Source: Humisphaera borealis (GTDB lineage: Bacteria > Planctomycetota > Phycisphaerae > Tepidisphaerales > Tepidisphaeraceae). From it: a stretch of 64,000 nucleotides of DNA. The stretch covers positions 5,394,001 through 5,458,000 of the forward strand of contig NZ_CP063458.1 of the NCBI RefSeq assembly GCF_015169395.1, given 5' to 3'. Below the pieces are notes generated by a model, which was not told the DNA's origin, made no database searches, and saw only the letters and a list, made by a program, of their open reading frames with translations. Positions 8,053 to 58,841 of the stretch are shown here, in pieces (position 1 is the first letter of the stretch; each line of letters begins with the position of its first letter). The position numbers were made by a program, and so were the translations under genes.

Positions 8053-8177
8053 AAAAGGGTGCGATGAACCGCAGATTGCGCAGATGTCGCAGATTTGGGA
8101 GAAGGCAATCTGCGGCATCTGCGCAATCTGCGGTTCAGTTTTCATTCTCTCGGTGCAAGGCGGACGGCCTCATGATG
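8053..8177 (-). repeat. Dispersed CGCAGATT palindrome element, copy 1
   Basis: A hairpin with 30-base arms (8066-8095 and 8107-8136, one mismatch, 11-base loop). The arms are made of the word GCAGATT at 8-9 base spacing. On the reverse strand the hairpin is bracketed by CATCATGAGGCCGTC (about 8163-8177 read backwards) and TTTTCGGAGCAG (about 8045-8057). The same bracket and order occur at 21303-21445, so this is one dispersed element family in two orientations. Confidence 0.9.
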
Positions 8178-21302: not shown

Positions 21303-21445
21303 TTCATCATGAGGCCGTCGGCCTCTCACCGAGATGACGACAACGCAACCGCAGATTTCGCAGATTGCGCAGATTGTTTGGACCAATCTGCGAAATCTGC
21401 GCAATCTGCGGTTTCCTCCCGTATTTTCGGAGCAGCTCATCATGA
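21303..21445 (+). repeat. Dispersed CGCAGATT palindrome element, copy 2
   Basis: Hairpin arms 21347-21376 and 21384-21414 (about 30 bases, two or three mismatches, short loop) made of GCAGATT words at 8-9 base period. It is bracketed by CATCATGAGGCCGTCGGCC upstream and TTTTCGGAGCAG downstream, as in the inverted copy at 8053-8177. A further CATCATGAGGCCGACGGGCC follows at 21438. Confidence 0.9.
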
Positions 21446-33739: not shown

Positions 33740-35017
33740 ATGATGACGTCCATTTCCGTTCGCCGACTGATCCTGTCGGGATCGATCGCATTCGGCCTGT
33801 ACCACTCGGCCCAAGCCGCCGACTGGACCATGTTCCGTGGCCCGACGCGGGACGGCGTCGTCCCCGCTGGCGAGAAAGCGCCGGCGGAATGGTCTGCGAG
33901 CAAGAACGTCAAGTGGAAGACCGCGCTGCCCCGTCCGGGCAATGCCAGCCCGGTCGTCGTCGGCGGGAAGGTGTTCCTGACGCTCGCGCTGGACGACAAA
34001 GGCACGCAGCGGAGCCTTTCCTGCTTTGATCGCACGGACGGCAAGCAGTTGTGGATCAAAACCGTCATCTACGATACGCCCGAGAAAACCCACGGCACCA
34101 ATCCGTACTGCGCCGCATCGCCGGCGGCGGACAAAGACGTGGTGATCGCCTGGCACGCGTCGGCAGGGCTCGTCTGTTACGACCACGACGGCAAGGAACT
34201 CTGGAAGCGCGACCTGGGGCCCATCCGCCACATCTGGGGCTGGGCGGGGTCGCCGGTCATCCACGGCGATGTGGTGTTCCTGAACGCCGGCCCCGGCGAT
34301 CGGCAGTTCGTTTGCGCGATCGACAAGAAGACCGGTGCCACACTCTGGCAGACGGAAGAACCCGGCGGCGCCGAAGACAAGAGCCCGGTCACCAACGGCT
34401 GGCTGGGTTCGTGGGGTTCACCGCGGGTGGTGGATGTCGCCGGCAAGGAGCAGGTGTGGGTCTTCCAGTCCGGCGGCGTGAAGAGCTATGACCCCAGGAC
34501 CGGCAAAATACTCTGGACGGTCGAGGGTGCCGGGCCGCTGGCGTACAGCGACGTGTATGTGGCGCCAGCCGCCGCGGACGGCAGCCGGCTGGGCTTGGCG
34601 ATCGCTGGTTATGGCGGGGCGGGGATCGGTTTCAAGGTGACGGCCGACGGCGCGAAGCGCACCTGGCAGAACAAGGACAAGCACCCGCAGCGCATCGGCA
34701 CCGGCGTCATCCTCGGCAACCGGGTGATCGTGCCGAATGAGCCCTACATCGGCTGCTACGACCTGGAAACCGGCAAGGAAGTCTGGCGACAGCAGTTCCA
34801 GGGCGCGCGGTTCTGGGGCAGCATCATCCAGCTCGGCGACAGGCTGTACGTCACCAGCCAGCAGGGCACGACCTACGTCTTCGCAGCGGACCCGACGGCG
34901 TACAAGGAAATCGCACAGAACCCGCTCGGCGAGGCCAGCAATTCAACCCCAGCCGTCAGCGACGGGCAGATGTTTCTGCGCACCGCGAAGCATTTGTGGT
35001 GCGTGGAGCAGAAGTAG
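33740..35017 (+). CDS. Exported PQQ-type beta-propeller repeat protein
   Basis: 425 residues. ATG 33740 leads to a signal peptide (RRLILSGSIAFGLYHSAQAA). Propeller blades repeat the pattern A-W-x-G-K-x-L-W: WTMFRGPTRDGVV, SCFDRTDGKQLWIKTV, CYDHDGKELWKRDLG, FVCAIDKKTGATLWQTE, SYDPRTGKILWTVEGAG and CYDLETGKEVWRQQF, which is the Trp docking motif of PQQ-like quinoproteins. Catalytic residues of true PQQ dehydrogenases are not evident, so a structural or assembly role (BamB-like) is as likely. In planctomycetes such proteins are very common and unassigned. Ends at the bidirectional terminator 35060-35098. Confidence 0.88.
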   Translation: MMTSISVRRLILSGSIAFGLYHSAQAADWTMFRGPTRDGVVPAGEKAPAEWSASKNVKWKTALPRPGNASPVVVGGKVFLTLALDDKGTQRSLSCFDRTDGKQLWIKTVIYDTPEKTHGTNPYCAASPAADKDVVIAWHASAGLVCYDHDGKELWKRDLGPIRHIWGWAGSPVIHGDVVFLNAGPGDRQFVCAIDKKTGATLWQTEEPGGAEDKSPVTNGWLGSWGSPRVVDVAGKEQVWVFQSGGVKSYDPRTGKILWTVEGAGPLAYSDVYVAPAAADGSRLGLAIAGYGGAGIGFKVTADGAKRTWQNKDKHPQRIGTGVILGNRVIVPNEPYIGCYDLETGKEVWRQQFQGARFWGSIIQLGDRLYVTSQQGTTYVFAADPTAYKEIAQNPLGEASNSTPAVSDGQMFLRTAKHLWCVEQK

Positions 35018-35059
35018 GCAGTAAGCAGTACGCCGAGAAGACAAGCGAAGACTAAAGAC

Positions 35060-35098
35060 GAAGAACGGCCGACGGGAAGCACCCGTCGGCCGTTCTTC
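35060..35098. terminator. Bidirectional intrinsic-like hairpin
   Basis: A perfect 17-base-pair stem (arm GAAGAACGGCCGACGGG, 35060-35076; complement 35082-35098) with loop AAGCA separates two convergent genes. The wider flanks GCAGTAAGCAGTACGC and GCGTACTGCTGACTGC make an outer arm. No T-run follows, so folding rather than a classical U-tract would do the work. Confidence 0.75.
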
Positions 35099-35137
35099 AA
35101 CCTGTGTCGTCACTGCGTACTGCTGACTGCGTACCGC

Positions 35138-36783: not shown

Positions 36784-36935
36784 ATGAACGCCGAGACGCC
36801 GAGACGCTAAGAGTTGCCGTACCTTGGGCGTCCTTGGCGACTCGGCGTCTTGGCGTCCATCTCATCTTCGAAGGCATCCTGGGTCGCCTGGCACCCCTCC
36901 GTGTCTCCGTGTCTCCGTGGTGATTCTTCCGCCGC
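36784..36935. repeat. GACGCCGA-word palindrome
   Basis: GAACGCCGAGACGCCGAGAC near 36786 and GCGACTCGGCGTCTTGGCGT near 36836 form an imperfect inverted repeat in which the word GCCGAGAC recurs every 8-9 bases. Next to it, CTCCGTGTCTCCGTGTCTCC (about 36899) is a second periodic block of the kind used at 53898-54178. Confidence 0.75.
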
Positions 36936-45692: not shown

Positions 45693-45821
45693 GAATGACG
45701 AATGACGAAATGCGAATGGCGAGTGAAGCCTAAATAACCAATGACGAATCGTTGCGTAGCGCGATTGAAACATTGAGTATTCGAGCTTCATTCGTCATTC
45801 GCATTTCGTCATTCGCCATTC
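45693..45821. repeat. AATGACG-word palindrome before ychF
   Basis: Arms 45693-45729 and 45785-45821 (37 bases, three mismatches) made of the seven-base word AATGACG (left arm starts GAATGACGAATGACGAAATG). It fills the gap between the DUF1501 gene and ychF. Confidence 0.92.
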
Positions 45822-46988: not shown

Positions 46989-47077
46989 TGGTGCCACGGG
47001 TCGCCGGTACTCCGGAGACCCGTGCGCTATCGTGCCGTCGGCACGGGTCTCCGGAGTACCGGCGACCCGTGGCACCA
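46989..47077. repeat. Perfect 37-base-arm palindrome after ychF
   Basis: Left arm 46989-47025 (starts TGGTGCCACGGGTCGCCGGT) and right arm 47041-47077 are exact reverse complements, separated by a 15-base loop. This is the longest perfect hairpin seen in the window and lies between the ends of two convergent genes. Confidence 0.97.
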
Positions 47078-48676: not shown

Positions 48677-48766
48677 GTAGGGTCCGCCTTGGCGGACGCG
48701 AACACGCGACCGGGACAATTTCGGGAAAGCGCGCGAGCCCAACGCGTCCGCCAAGGCGGACCCTAC
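48677..48766. repeat. GTAGGGTCC palindrome, copy 2
   Basis: Perfect 23-base arms 48677-48699 and 48744-48766, loop of 44 bases. The right arm ends exactly at the last codons of the esterase gene (stop at 48763). Confidence 0.93.
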
Positions 48767-49750: not shown

Positions 49751-49812
49751 TTGTGGTGCGGGCTTCAGCCTGCACATTCGGGTGCGGGTGCAGGCTGAAG
49801 CCCGCACCACAA
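49751..49812. repeat. Perfect 25-base-arm palindrome
   Basis: Left arm 49751-49775 (TTGTGGTGCGGGCTTCAGCC...) and right arm 49788-49812 are exact complements with a 12-base loop. It shares the opening TTGTGGTGC with the palindrome at 33629. Confidence 0.96.
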
Positions 49813-52828: not shown

Positions 52829-53791
52829 TCATCGCCCGATCAGCGCCTTCACTTCCGGCGATCCGAGGTTTTCCTTGGTGATCACGATCACGCCGGTATC
52901 GACATTCGGTTCCACCGGCTTGCCGTCGAGCTTGTTGACGATCACCTTGACCGACTCATACCCCATCTTCTCAGGGTTCTGGGCCACCAGACCCTGGATT
53001 TTGCCCTCCTCCATCGCCTTGAGCAGCGGCACCGACTTGTCGAACCCGACAAACTTCACCTTCTGGCTTTCGCCGGCGAGGCCGGCGCGTTCCAGTGCGT
53101 TCAGCATGCCCTGCGTGCTGGATTCGTTCGGGCAGAAGATGCCATCGGCATCACGAAGCACGTCGAGCATCGACTCGGCCTTCTTCTGGGCGCTGTCGGC
53201 GGTCGCGCCGGCGTATTGGTTGGACGAGATCAGCGTGATGCCGGGCGCTTCCTTCATCGCGTCCATAAAGCCCGCCTCTCGCTCGGCGGTGCTGGCGCTG
53301 TTTTCCTGGTAGCGAAGCAGGACGACCTTGCCCTTGCCCCCGAGCACCTCGGCCAGCCGTTTGCCGCCGAGATAGCCACCCTTCTTGTTGTCGGTGGCGA
53401 CGAGCGAGATGAAGTCCTTGTTCAGTTCGCCGGCCAGGGGCGAATCCATGATGACCACGGGAATCTTCTTACCCGCCGCCTGCTGAACCGGGCGGAGTAG
53501 CGCCTTGTCGTCGAGCGGCGCCAGGACAATGCCGGCGACGCCATCGGTGACCATTTGCTCGACAATCTGGATCTGCCCCGCGCGGTCGTCTTCCTTGAGC
53601 GGGCCTTTCCAAATGATCTCGACGTTCATCTCGGCGGCCGCCTTCTTCGCGCCGGCCTCGACGCCTTTCCAGTGTTCGTGGGTGGTGCCCTTCGGGATGA
53701 CGCCGATCTGCCGTTTGCCGGAGCCGGACTCCTTGCAGCCGACAAACGCGAGAACGGACACACACAGCGAAAGTGCGAGCAGGCGGTTCAT
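52829..53791 (-). CDS. Sugar-binding lipoprotein of ABC transport type (substrate-binding protein)
   Basis: 320 residues from ATG 53791, which has GGAGGAAC three bases upstream, a strong site. Lipoprotein signal RLLALSLCVSVLAFVGCKES with lipobox F-V-G-C. Periplasmic binding fold type 1: QIGVIPKGTTHEHWKGVEAG, IVLAPLDDKALLRPVQQAAG, IPVVIMDSPLAGELNKDF, VATDNKKGGYLGGKRLAEVL, and DGIFCPNESSTQGMLNAL are typical of the ribose/galactose (RbsB-like) family. No permease or ATPase gene is nearby, so it is an orphan that must work with a distant transporter or as a sensor partner. Confidence 0.92.
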   Translation of the reverse strand: MNRLLALSLCVSVLAFVGCKESGSGKRQIGVIPKGTTHEHWKGVEAGAKKAAAEMNVEIIWKGPLKEDDRAGQIQIVEQMVTDGVAGIVLAPLDDKALLRPVQQAAGKKIPVVIMDSPLAGELNKDFISLVATDNKKGGYLGGKRLAEVLGGKGKVVLLRYQENSASTAEREAGFMDAMKEAPGITLISSNQYAGATADSAQKKAESMLDVLRDADGIFCPNESSTQGMLNALERAGLAGESQKVKFVGFDKSVPLLKAMEEGKIQGLVAQNPEKMGYESVKVIVNKLDGKPVEPNVDTGVIVITKENLGSPEVKALIGR

Positions 53792-53897: not shown

Positions 53898-54178
53898 AGA
53901 TCACCACGGAGGCACGGAGACACGGAGGGCAACTCGACTACGACGTCGTCTGCGAAAAGATTTGGGGAACCACAGATGCACACAGATCTGCACAGATCAG
54001 ATGCGTCGGAGATGCATGAGCCAAAACGGACGGACACGGATGTGCCGCAGCAAATAGTGATTGCTGCCTGTCTCGACTATCTGTGCAGATCTGTGTGCAT
54101 CTGTGGTTCCTCCCGTGTTTGCTCAGAGGACGTCGTAGTCGAGTTGCCCTCCGTGTCTCCGTGCCACCGTGGTGATCT
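53898..54178. repeat. Large palindrome with ~100-base arms
   Basis: AGATCACCACGGAGGCACGG at 53898 is answered by TCCGTGCCACCGTGGTGATC at 54158-54177; the pairing continues through AACTCGACTACGACGTC (53931-53947) and GAACCACAGATGCACACAGA (53967-53986), with internal mismatches. The arms are built of CACGGAG and ACACAGATC words. It fills the gap between the sugar-binding protein and the helicase gene. Confidence 0.9.
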
Positions 54179-54205: not shown

Positions 54206-56158
54206 TTGAACGAGCTTTCGAACCAACTCGATTCCCTCTGGCCGCGCGTGGACGACTGCATGCTGCGCGATCGGCCACGCCTGCGATCGCGGCTGCGGGC
54301 GGTGCGGAGCGAGTCGCAGAAAAAAACGTTCGATGCCGCCCGCCTGATCGCGACGGTGCAGTCGATCGGGGAGAGGATCGAAGACTCGTCCGCGGAAGTC
54401 CTCGCCCGGCGGGCCAATCTCCCGAAACCGACTTTTCCCGAAGAACTGCCGGTCGTGCAACGCCGGGAGGACATCAAAAAGGCGATCGCCGAGAACCAGG
54501 TGGTCGTTCTTTGCGGCGAGACGGGCAGCGGCAAGACCACCCAGTTGCCCAAAATTCTGCTCGAACTGGGTCGCGGCGTTACCGGCATGATCGGCCACAC
54601 CCAGCCACGGCGGATCGCCGCCCGTTCGGTGGCGATGCGGATCGCGAGCGAACTCAAATCGCAGCTCGGGCACGCCGTCGGCTACAAGGTGCGGTTCAAC
54701 GACCAGACCCGGCGGGAAACCTACGTCAAGTTGATGACCGATGGCATCCTGCTGGCCGAAGCGCAGGCCGATCGGTTCCTGAACGCCTACGACACGATCA
54801 TCATTGACGAGGCCCACGAGCGAAGCCTGAACATCGACTTCCTGCTCGGCCTGCTCAAAACGCTGCTGCCGCGCCGGCCGGAACTGAAGCTGATCATCAC
54901 CAGTGCCACGATCGACCCACAGCGGTTCGCGACGCACTTCGGCGAGCAGGGCAAGCCGGCGCCGATCCTGGAGATCTCCGGCCGCACCTATCCAGTTGAG
55001 GTGCGCTACCGCGCGCTGGACGACGACACCGATCCCGATTCCGAAGACCTGGCCATCGAAGATGCCATCGTGCAGGCGGCGGGGGAGCTTGCCGCCGAGG
55101 GGCCCGGCGACATGCTGGTCTTCCTCGCCGGCGAACGGGAGATCCGCGAAACCGCCGAGGCGCTGCGCAAACACCACCCGGCGGAAACAGAAATCCTGCC
55201 GCTGTTCAGCCGGCTCAACGCCGACGAGCAGATGAAGGTCTTCCAGCCGCACCAGCGACGGCGGATCGTGCTGGCGACAAACGTCGCCGAGACGTCGCTC
55301 ACCGTGCCGGGCATCCGCTACGTCATCGACCCCGGCTTGGCCCGCATGAGCCGGTACAACGCGCGCACCAAGGTTCAGCGACTGCCGATCGAGCGCATCA
55401 GCCAGGCGTCGGCCGACCAGCGCAAGGGGCGGTGCGGCCGCGTCGGGCCGGGTGTCTGCGTACGGCTTTACAGCGAGGAAGACTTCGCCAGCCGGCCGGT
55501 CTACACCGATCCGGAAATCCTGCGGACGAACCTGTCGGCGGTCATCCTTCAGATGAAGGCGTTCGGCCTCGGCAACGTGCAGGACTTCCCGTTCATCGAA
55601 CCGCCGGACTACCGCGCCGTCCGCGATGGCTACGCGACATTGCACGAACTGGGCGCGATCGACGACCGGAACGAGCTCACGCAACTCGGCCATCAACTGG
55701 CGAGGCTGCCGGTCGACCCGCGCCTCGGCCGCATGGTGCTGGCGGCGATCCACGAGGACTGCCTGGAGGAAGTGCTGGTCATCGCATCGGCACTCGCGAT
55801 CCAGGACCCGCGCGAACGCCCCATGGAAAAAGCCGCCGAGGCCGACACGGCTCACGCGCCGTTCCGTGACCCGCAGTCAGATTTTCTGGGCTTCCTGCGG
55901 CTTTGGGATGCGTTCCACGACCGGCAGAAGCACCTGTCCGGCAGCAAACTTCGCAAGTGGTGCCAGGCGTCGTTCGTCAGCTACGTGCGGATGCGCGAGT
56001 GGCACGACGTGCATTCACAGTTGAAGGAAATCGTGGGGGAGTTGGGATTGCAGCAGGCCCGTCGCGCCGCGCAGCAGGTACAGGTCCGTGAGAGCCCCTC
56101 AGAGGGTTCCTATCGACGACGCAAGAGAGGTCCGCGCGTCGTGGAACGGGGTCGGTGA
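54206..56158 (+). CDS. hrpA: ATP-dependent RNA helicase HrpA, half-length
   Basis: 650 residues, against about 1300 for complete HrpA. Seen: N-terminal RDRPRLRSRLRAVRSE, DEAH-box helicase core with P-loop VVLCGETGSGKTTQLPKILL (about 100-119), TQPRRIAARSVAMRIA, IIIDEAHERSLNIDFLL, TSATIDPQRFATHF, IVLATNVAETSLTVPGIRY and QRKGRCGRVGPGVCVRLYSE, then the winged-helix and HA2/ratchet part (RLPVDPRLGRMVLAAIHEDC; KWCQASFVSYVRMREWHDVH). The reading then ends in a basic tail (YRRRKRGPRVVERGR); the entire C-terminal half (DUF3418 region) is missing, with a repeat at 56220 after it. The motor part should still bind ATP and RNA. Start TTG 54206; ATG codons occur later. Confidence 0.92.
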   Translation: MNELSNQLDSLWPRVDDCMLRDRPRLRSRLRAVRSESQKKTFDAARLIATVQSIGERIEDSSAEVLARRANLPKPTFPEELPVVQRREDIKKAIAENQVVVLCGETGSGKTTQLPKILLELGRGVTGMIGHTQPRRIAARSVAMRIASELKSQLGHAVGYKVRFNDQTRRETYVKLMTDGILLAEAQADRFLNAYDTIIIDEAHERSLNIDFLLGLLKTLLPRRPELKLIITSATIDPQRFATHFGEQGKPAPILEISGRTYPVEVRYRALDDDTDPDSEDLAIEDAIVQAAGELAAEGPGDMLVFLAGEREIRETAEALRKHHPAETEILPLFSRLNADEQMKVFQPHQRRRIVLATNVAETSLTVPGIRYVIDPGLARMSRYNARTKVQRLPIERISQASADQRKGRCGRVGPGVCVRLYSEEDFASRPVYTDPEILRTNLSAVILQMKAFGLGNVQDFPFIEPPDYRAVRDGYATLHELGAIDDRNELTQLGHQLARLPVDPRLGRMVLAAIHEDCLEEVLVIASALAIQDPRERPMEKAAEADTAHAPFRDPQSDFLGFLRLWDAFHDRQKHLSGSKLRKWCQASFVSYVRMREWHDVHSQLKEIVGELGLQQARRAAQQVQVRESPSEGSYRRRKRGPRVVERGR

Positions 56159-56219: not shown

Positions 56220-56342
56220 GCCACAGAGACACTGAGACACAGAGGGCATTTCGACGGATGCGCTTCATTGCGGGAAGGCGGGATGAATTCATCGAAGCGC
56301 GTCGGAGGCTGTCGGCCCTCTGTGCCTCCGTGTCTCTGTGGC
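56220..56342. repeat. CACAGAGAC-word palindrome after hrpA
   Basis: GCCACAGAGACACTGAGACA (56220) and its complement ending CTCTGTGGC (56342) form 27-base arms with two mismatches. The spacing of about 69 bases between them contains other imperfect pairs. Confidence 0.88.
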
Positions 56343-58665: not shown

Positions 58666-58748
58666 GCTTTAAGCCAGAGATGTGCGTGTTCTGAGCATGT
58701 AACTGGCCGTCTGGATGGGACGGGTAATCGATGGCGTGGCGAACCCCC

Positions 58749-58819
58749 GTAGGGTCCGCCTTGGCGGACGCGGTGGGTTGGCGCGATCGCGTGCTCGCGT
58801 CCGCCAAGGCGGACCCTAC
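58749..58819. repeat. GTAGGGTCC palindrome, copy 3
   Basis: Perfect 23-base arms 58749-58771 and 58797-58819 with a 25-base loop, same arm sequence as the copy at 48677. It lies between the frameshifted gene and the end of the STAS gene. Confidence 0.93.
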
Positions 58820-58841
58820 GAACCGAATCCCGCACAGTCCG

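Follow-up and report, generated by a model that had tools for sequence, protein, structure and literature searches.

The palindrome at positions 53898-54178 of the window, a term used here for the whole stretch of 64,000 nucleotides analysed from the genome of Humisphaera borealis, is probably a gene-less, MITE-like composite of a word-armed mobile element, and we put the probability of this reading at roughly two in three. Its outer part would be an emptied shell, with terminal inverted repeats of tandem CACGGAGN words that elsewhere enclose a GxxExxY gene, and its centre would be a second palindrome of ACACAGAT words, akin to another GxxExxY element, the composite having apparently been copied as one unit to several sites. 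The sequence traits that suggest mobility of the palindrome itself are three, namely its copy number, its unrelated flanks and its patchy distribution.

Structure and folding of the palindrome

The palindrome has a total length of 281 bp and consists of two 100-nt arms (53898-53997 and 54079-54178), which are complementary at 91 of 100 positions, around a centre that contains no gene. An earlier note, made from the letters of this DNA, had described a very large palindrome with arms of about 100 bases, as this pairing bears out, and a centre of about 75 bases; a centre is present, but its length is 81 nt. The note had also called it the largest palindrome of the window, and it is indeed the longest of the window's 31 inverted repeats among the matches listed (25 of 31). 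The layout is nested, with CACGGAGN words at the ends of an outer hairpin and a central, inner hairpin of ACACAGAT words. Each arm starts with AGATCACC and runs from an outer word array of 32 nt, through a spacer of 36 nt without words, into an inner word array of 32 nt. The view that the arms are built of tandem words of 7-9 bases thus holds for the outer and inner 32 nt, where the words are spaced at 8 nt and at 8-12 nt, respectively, but not for the 36 nt between them. The features of the palindrome and its surroundings are:

52832-53791, minus strand: periplasmic sugar-binding protein gene (PF13407, E = 5e-63), outside the element
53898-53929, plus strand: left outer arm, three CACGGAG words in tandem at 8-nt spacing
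53930-53965, plus strand: left spacer, non-word, pairing mostly with 54111-54146
53966-53997, plus strand: left inner arm, ACACAGAT-type words
53998-54078, no strand: centre, 81 nt, gene-free, common to the composite copies L002, L003 and L004
54079-54110, minus strand: right inner arm
54111-54146, minus strand: right spacer
54147-54178, minus strand: right outer arm, minus-strand CACGGAG words, one with a substitution
54206-56158, plus strand: HrpA-like DEAH helicase gene (Helicase_C, HA2_N, HA2_C and DEAD domains; TTG start as listed), outside the element

A comparison of the folding energy with that of shuffled DNA, which had been proposed as a check, showed the palindrome to be far more stable: its single DNA strand has a folding energy of -137 kcal/mol, whereas 100 dinucleotide shuffles gave -53.2 +/- 4.1 (z = -20.5). 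An assembly artefact is unlikely, since the genome is a single 7.19 Mb contig, the same element occurs elsewhere in unrelated flanks, and the arms recur in other genomes.

Copies and kindred palindromes in the genome

Including the palindrome itself, four copies of the composite (L001-L004) were found, which are 79-85% identical and lie in unrelated flanks. Similarity among them ends at the element, except for a 28-nt arm piece in L003 about 0.9 kb further on. The right arm of this copy (L003, 1725-2684) is interrupted by other sequence of about 0.9 kb, and from the look of the start of an ORF our guess is that an insertion sequence has entered it.

Triple CACNGAG arrays occur 73 times in the 7.19 Mb genome (36 forward, 37 reverse), compared with 5 occurrences of the reversed pattern. 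By our own count, close pairs of these arrays are plus-then-minus in 20 cases and minus-then-plus in none, so the words point inward. The interiors of the CACNGAG elements vary and comprise unique sequence, other palindromes and, in one case, an ORF of 157 aa; the latter lies in a CACGGAG shell of about 590 bp (L043, 515-1040), has a weak, sub-threshold Pfam match to SMI1/KNR4 and is possibly foreign cargo. Across the phylum, 23 of 119 genomes carry the words, the present one among them.

An inverted-repeat census of 464 kb, comprising the window and 20 stretches of 20 kb, yielded 64 inverted repeats with a score of at least 18, versus none in a mononucleotide-shuffled copy. An automatic threshold classed 11 of the 64 as word-type, and inspection by eye added a few; the arms of 10 of the 64 matched a library of arms from gene-bearing elements, versus 0 of 64 shuffled arms. 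The kinship that had been suggested between the palindrome and the other word palindromes of the window is supported by the arm comparisons and this census. An element sits inside the centre of another palindrome in six cases, the palindrome itself being one; a post hoc Fisher test gives p = 6e-5.

Six further word palindromes were observed in the window (8065-8137, 21347-21413, 35014-35134, 36784-36860, 45693-45821 and 56220-56342), with the words CGCAGATTG, GCAGTAC, ACGCCGAG, GAATGAC and CACAGAG; their 7-mers look like those of the S23 class and their 8-9-mers like those of the GxxExxY class, both described below. Across the genome GCAGTA forms 8 inverted pairs, one of which holds an S23 gene, the other 7 being too short for one. 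A second, non-word kind of palindrome (46989-47077, 48677-48766, 49751-49812 and 58748-58820; for example GTAGGGTCCGCC) is repeated across the genome and is REP-like, and the genome has 11 Y1_Tnp matches.

GxxExxY genes lie between word arms

GxxExxY (PF13366) is a protein of about 130 aa that resembles PD-(D/E)XK nucleases, and 62 of 64 such proteins have retained the D...ExK motif, which we take to be catalytic. The outer arm of the palindrome matches the arm of a GxxExxY element from another genus of the family (L265) at 32 of 33 nt, and its inner arm matches that of a GxxExxY element of this genome (L289) at 28 of 32 nt. To detect arms, the 300-nt stretches on the two sides of a gene were compared for their best inverted match (+1/-2), and a score of 14 was taken as the mark. 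Inverted word arms were present at 75 of 90 GxxExxY loci overall: at 27 of 29 loci of the family (one of 30 was skipped; there were 42 gene matches in all), versus 0 of 107 shifted controls; at 28 of 35 loci from other groups, plasmids and this genome (one of 36 was skipped), versus 1 of 122 shifted controls; and at 20 of 26 loci of the phylum (26 of 30 were tested, in a set without shifted controls). Over the sets of GxxExxY and S23/IVP genes with controls, 2 of 1,162 control intervals had arms.

The best word period was 8-10 nt in 45 of 55 GxxExxY arms, and their words are those of the palindrome: CACGGAG, CACAGAG, CACGAAG and ACACAGAT. Four further genomes have full GxxExxY genes enclosed by CACNGAG arms (L238, L364, L365 and L366); L238, from another genome of the phylum, is a 427-bp CACAGAG palindrome whose gene matches PF13366 (E = 3e-39) and TIGR04256 (E = 5e-41). 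The four GxxExxY genes of this genome all have word arms, and none of the four has CACGGAG arms. PF13366 is tied modestly to word-rich genomes: it was present in 9 of 11 genomes with at least 4 word matches and in 14 of 40 without any (p = 0.014), a comparison that left out G051, G078 and G134, which also have at least 4 matches.

The palindrome displays inverted arrays of 8-10-nt words that point inward, the trait of the proposed word-armed GxxExxY element. It contains no GxxExxY gene and no remnant of one was found in it, the four such genes of the genome lying elsewhere, so that it would be a gene-less relative of these elements rather than a full member. The gene-less CACGGAG elements of this genome likewise contained no convincing GxxExxY remnant; over all loci examined, the search gave three hits (E 0.004-0.007), of which two come from this genome and fall outside the arms. 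For GxxExxY elements, no clean empty site was found among the relatives matched, which were remote. One GxxExxY gene lies between fabD and fabG (L292) and another between radA and an FAD-protein gene (L291), which looks like insertion into operons, at an identity too low for reading the junctions.

S23/IVP genes form a second class of word-armed elements

Inverted word arms were also present at 94 of 116 loci of the S23/IVP family (PF05635). Of 87 matches in the bacterial family 33 were tested, and 28 of these reached the mark of 14, versus 0 of 490 controls; in a wider set, made up of 4 plasmids and the 80 best relatives from scanning bacterial and archaeal genomes (one of the 84 was skipped), the mark was reached by 66 of 83 loci, versus 1 of 443 controls. 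The sole archaeal locus scored 13, below the mark. Each of the four PF05635 genes of this genome is enclosed by inverted word arrays, which were recognised by score for two of the genes and by eye only for the other two. The best period in the 94 armed loci was 7 nt in 76, 8 nt in 17 and 6 nt in 1, and of the period-7 arms (n = 73) 56 have AG in three quarters or more of their words, against 20 that have GA. The elements L125, L151 and L192 have tandem 7-mer arms of 150-200 nt or more on both sides, as if the number of words could grow freely.

Alignments indicate that elements of the S23 class have moved in the past. The element L205 of a cyanobacterial plasmid has empty counterparts in three aligned plasmids (L208-L210, 97-98% identity); the empty site contains GTAATTAA a single time, and next to the insert there are one intact copy and one copy matching at 7 of 8 nt. 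Related copies (L214 and L215, 83% and 78%) are located in two other contexts, and S23 genes also occupy the nrdB-nrdA and cas6-cas4 intervals, with one relative each that lacks the insert. Apart from the S23 insertion, no word palindrome was found in four 50-kb stretches of related cyanobacterial plasmids. In another plasmid (L213, 400-720), with flanks 99% identical to those of the S23 element L204, the cas6-cas4 gap holds a different, palindrome-like insert, which raises the question whether this gap is an insertion hot spot.

S23 was considered as the partner of the palindrome and was dropped for the CACGGAG and ACACAGAT families, because the CACGGAG-rich relatives G019 and G003 (genomes 58% and 79% complete) have a GxxExxY gene and no S23 gene, and because the arm words match the GxxExxY class.

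Both gene families might be passengers that merely ride inside word palindromes moved by other machinery. This is the likeliest of the alternatives, though we regard it as unlikely. It would accommodate the gene-less shells of this genome, which far outnumber the gene-bearing ones, the CACGGAG shell around a different ORF of 157 aa, and the Y1 transposase-type matches. It is at odds with the recurrence of both families inside word arms across phyla, with the difference in word length between the two classes, and with the retention of D...ExK in nearly all GxxExxY proteins.

Gene-less derivatives and target duplications

Derivatives that link gene-bearing elements to empty shells were found in two genomes. 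In G076, two CACGGAG palindromes (L361 and L363) retain about 35 codons of the GxxExxY gene, and a full-length relative (L364) is present in the same genome. The two are 91% identical across the element and unrelated outside it, and direct repeats at their ends (8 of 8 nt in L361, 7 of 8 nt in L363) represent 8-bp target duplications. In G153, a CACAGAG palindrome (L362) contains a GxxExxY stub with an in-frame stop. Together with the gene-less GCAGTA pairs, these internal-deletion stubs point to the path by which MITEs arise.

Target duplication was also considered as a general mark of these elements. Direct repeats of at least 6 nt at the same locus had a frequency of 0.20 versus 0.10 in swapped pairs for S23 (n = 96), and of 0.23 versus 0.13 for GxxExxY (n = 75), and the mark is therefore weak for both; for the gene-less elements of this genome (n = 21) the frequency was 0.05 versus 0.09, and no target duplication was seen in these 21 CACGGAG elements.

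The palindromes could instead have been made in place and never have moved, the tandem words arising by slippage and the inverted copy by template switching at replication forks. We consider this improbable as an origin, and it is hard to hold as the sole cause given the empty sites and deletion derivatives: it leaves unexplained the same element in unrelated flanks, the genes between the arms, and the empty sites with their target duplications. The tandem arrangement of the words, the symmetry of the nested parts, arm mismatches without strand bias and a 14-nt difference in word number between the orthologous S23 elements L205 and L212 are in its favour, and slippage or template switching may shape the arms.

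Neighbouring genes

The position upstream of the helicase gene given in the earlier note was corroborated: the palindrome occupies 281 of the 414 bp between the divergent sugar-binding protein and helicase genes, with the gene starts as taken. Among 12 helicase relatives, none has this palindrome beside the helicase start, and its placement there is therefore probably incidental. A relative of the same genus has a different palindrome 162 nt upstream of the helicase gene, and one relative of the family has a CACAGAG palindrome 669 nt upstream. A nucleotide-level empty site for the palindrome was not found among the available relatives, which are too distant for one to be read. The palindrome probably has no specific role for its neighbours.

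The very stable fold would also suit an RNA device, the stem being kept because its transcript acts as a terminator, as an RNase III site or in the regulation of the helicase gene, and RNase III is reported to excise the kindred intervening sequences of 23S rRNA (PMC4990558). On the plus strand, 2 of the 9 arm mismatches of the palindrome are G.U and none is A.C. Selection for an RNA stem finds no support, since arm mismatches read on the strand of the gene show no excess of G.U over A.C, either in S23 elements (72 versus 89, p = 0.21) or in GxxExxY elements (44 versus 45). An Rfam scan of the palindrome gave no family at the gathering score (the best match, at 33.3 bits, was to a microRNA model whose cut-off is 100), and the palindrome is missing at this place in the 12 relatives. 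The explanation thus appears very improbable.

Comparison with known repeats and elements

The palindrome resembles MITEs in being short and gene-less, with inverted terminal repeats and many copies; a further likeness is the occurrence of deletion derivatives of gene-bearing elements that share the same ends. Of these traits, it has four aligned copies in unrelated flanks and gene-bearing relatives (L265 and L289) that share its ends. It differs from MITEs in that its ends are tandem word arrays, the gene of its relatives does not encode a known transposase, and no target duplication was seen in the copies of this genome.

Like the palindrome, the intervening sequences of 23S rRNA have inverted terminal repeats, there around a small PF05635 gene (PMC4990558). 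They reside in rRNA helices, whereas the palindrome is intergenic between protein genes, contains no S23 gene and has the 8-nt words of the GxxExxY class. In Coxiella, heptamers precede the S23p ORF of the intervening sequence, and such sequences are viewed as selfish and perhaps once mobile, earlier suggestions of mobility being reported in the same paper (PMC4990558). The S23 protein of Xanthomonas is described as a homopentamer (PMC4990558), and the structure PDB 2gsc has five chains.

Heptamer repeats described in other bacteria also consist of tandem 7-nt words in intergenic DNA, namely GGGNATC in Xanthomonas and Nostoc, with 70 and 75 inverted pairs in two Xanthomonas genomes (PMC4692102), and TAACTGA in Beggiatoaceae (PMC4679880). 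In these papers they are described as quadruplex-forming or regulatory and not as the ends of elements; the Xanthomonas heptamer pairs and the TAACTGA repeats may be the same phenomenon as the word-armed elements.

REP/BIMEs are likewise dispersed intergenic palindromes and have been reported in Planctomycetes (PMC3733652). That the palindrome is such a repeat, moved by a RAYT (Y1) transposase, is the least credible of the alternatives: the genome has its Y1_Tnp matches and the window its REP-like palindromes, but REP/BIMEs are 20-40 nt in length, carry a GTAG or CGTC tag, have no word arrays and are associated with different genes (RAYT), whereas the palindrome has 100-nt arms with tandem words, lacks either tag at the foot of both arms and matches the arms of GxxExxY elements instead.

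Proposed mechanism and implications

For the preferred reading, a gene-less composite of word-armed elements, we infer that the GxxExxY product, perhaps with host replication or repair, would recognise the word arms and move gene-less shells in trans. Slippage would alter the number of words, and the nesting would result from a tendency of the elements to insert at the centre of hairpins already present.

A broader reading is offered tentatively, at somewhat below even odds. It supposes very small mobile elements without a known transposase in many bacterial phyla, bounded by inverted arrays of tandem words and carrying a single gene, in which GxxExxY or S23 reads the words and mobilises shells in trans, and it would give one origin to word palindromes, some heptamer repeats and the intervening sequences of 23S rRNA. 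Its two classes would be GxxExxY, with words of mostly 8-10 nt, and the four-helix-bundle ring of S23/IVP, with words of mostly 7 nt, usually with an AG in each. Recognition by either protein would perhaps involve one word per subunit, which for S23 is speculation.

A literature search, mainly of open-access papers, found none that links word palindromes with S23 or GxxExxY genes, and GxxExxY is scarcely mentioned by name in the open-access literature. The word-armed elements are apparently a widespread and undescribed group in bacteria. The word arrays around both genes, the past jumps and the shed shells would give the widespread GxxExxY and S23/IVP families a testable job, and part of the puzzling intergenic repeats of bacteria would be explained. 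They would also provide a candidate case in which DNA may be moved by a protein of 120-130 residues in place of a classical transposase.
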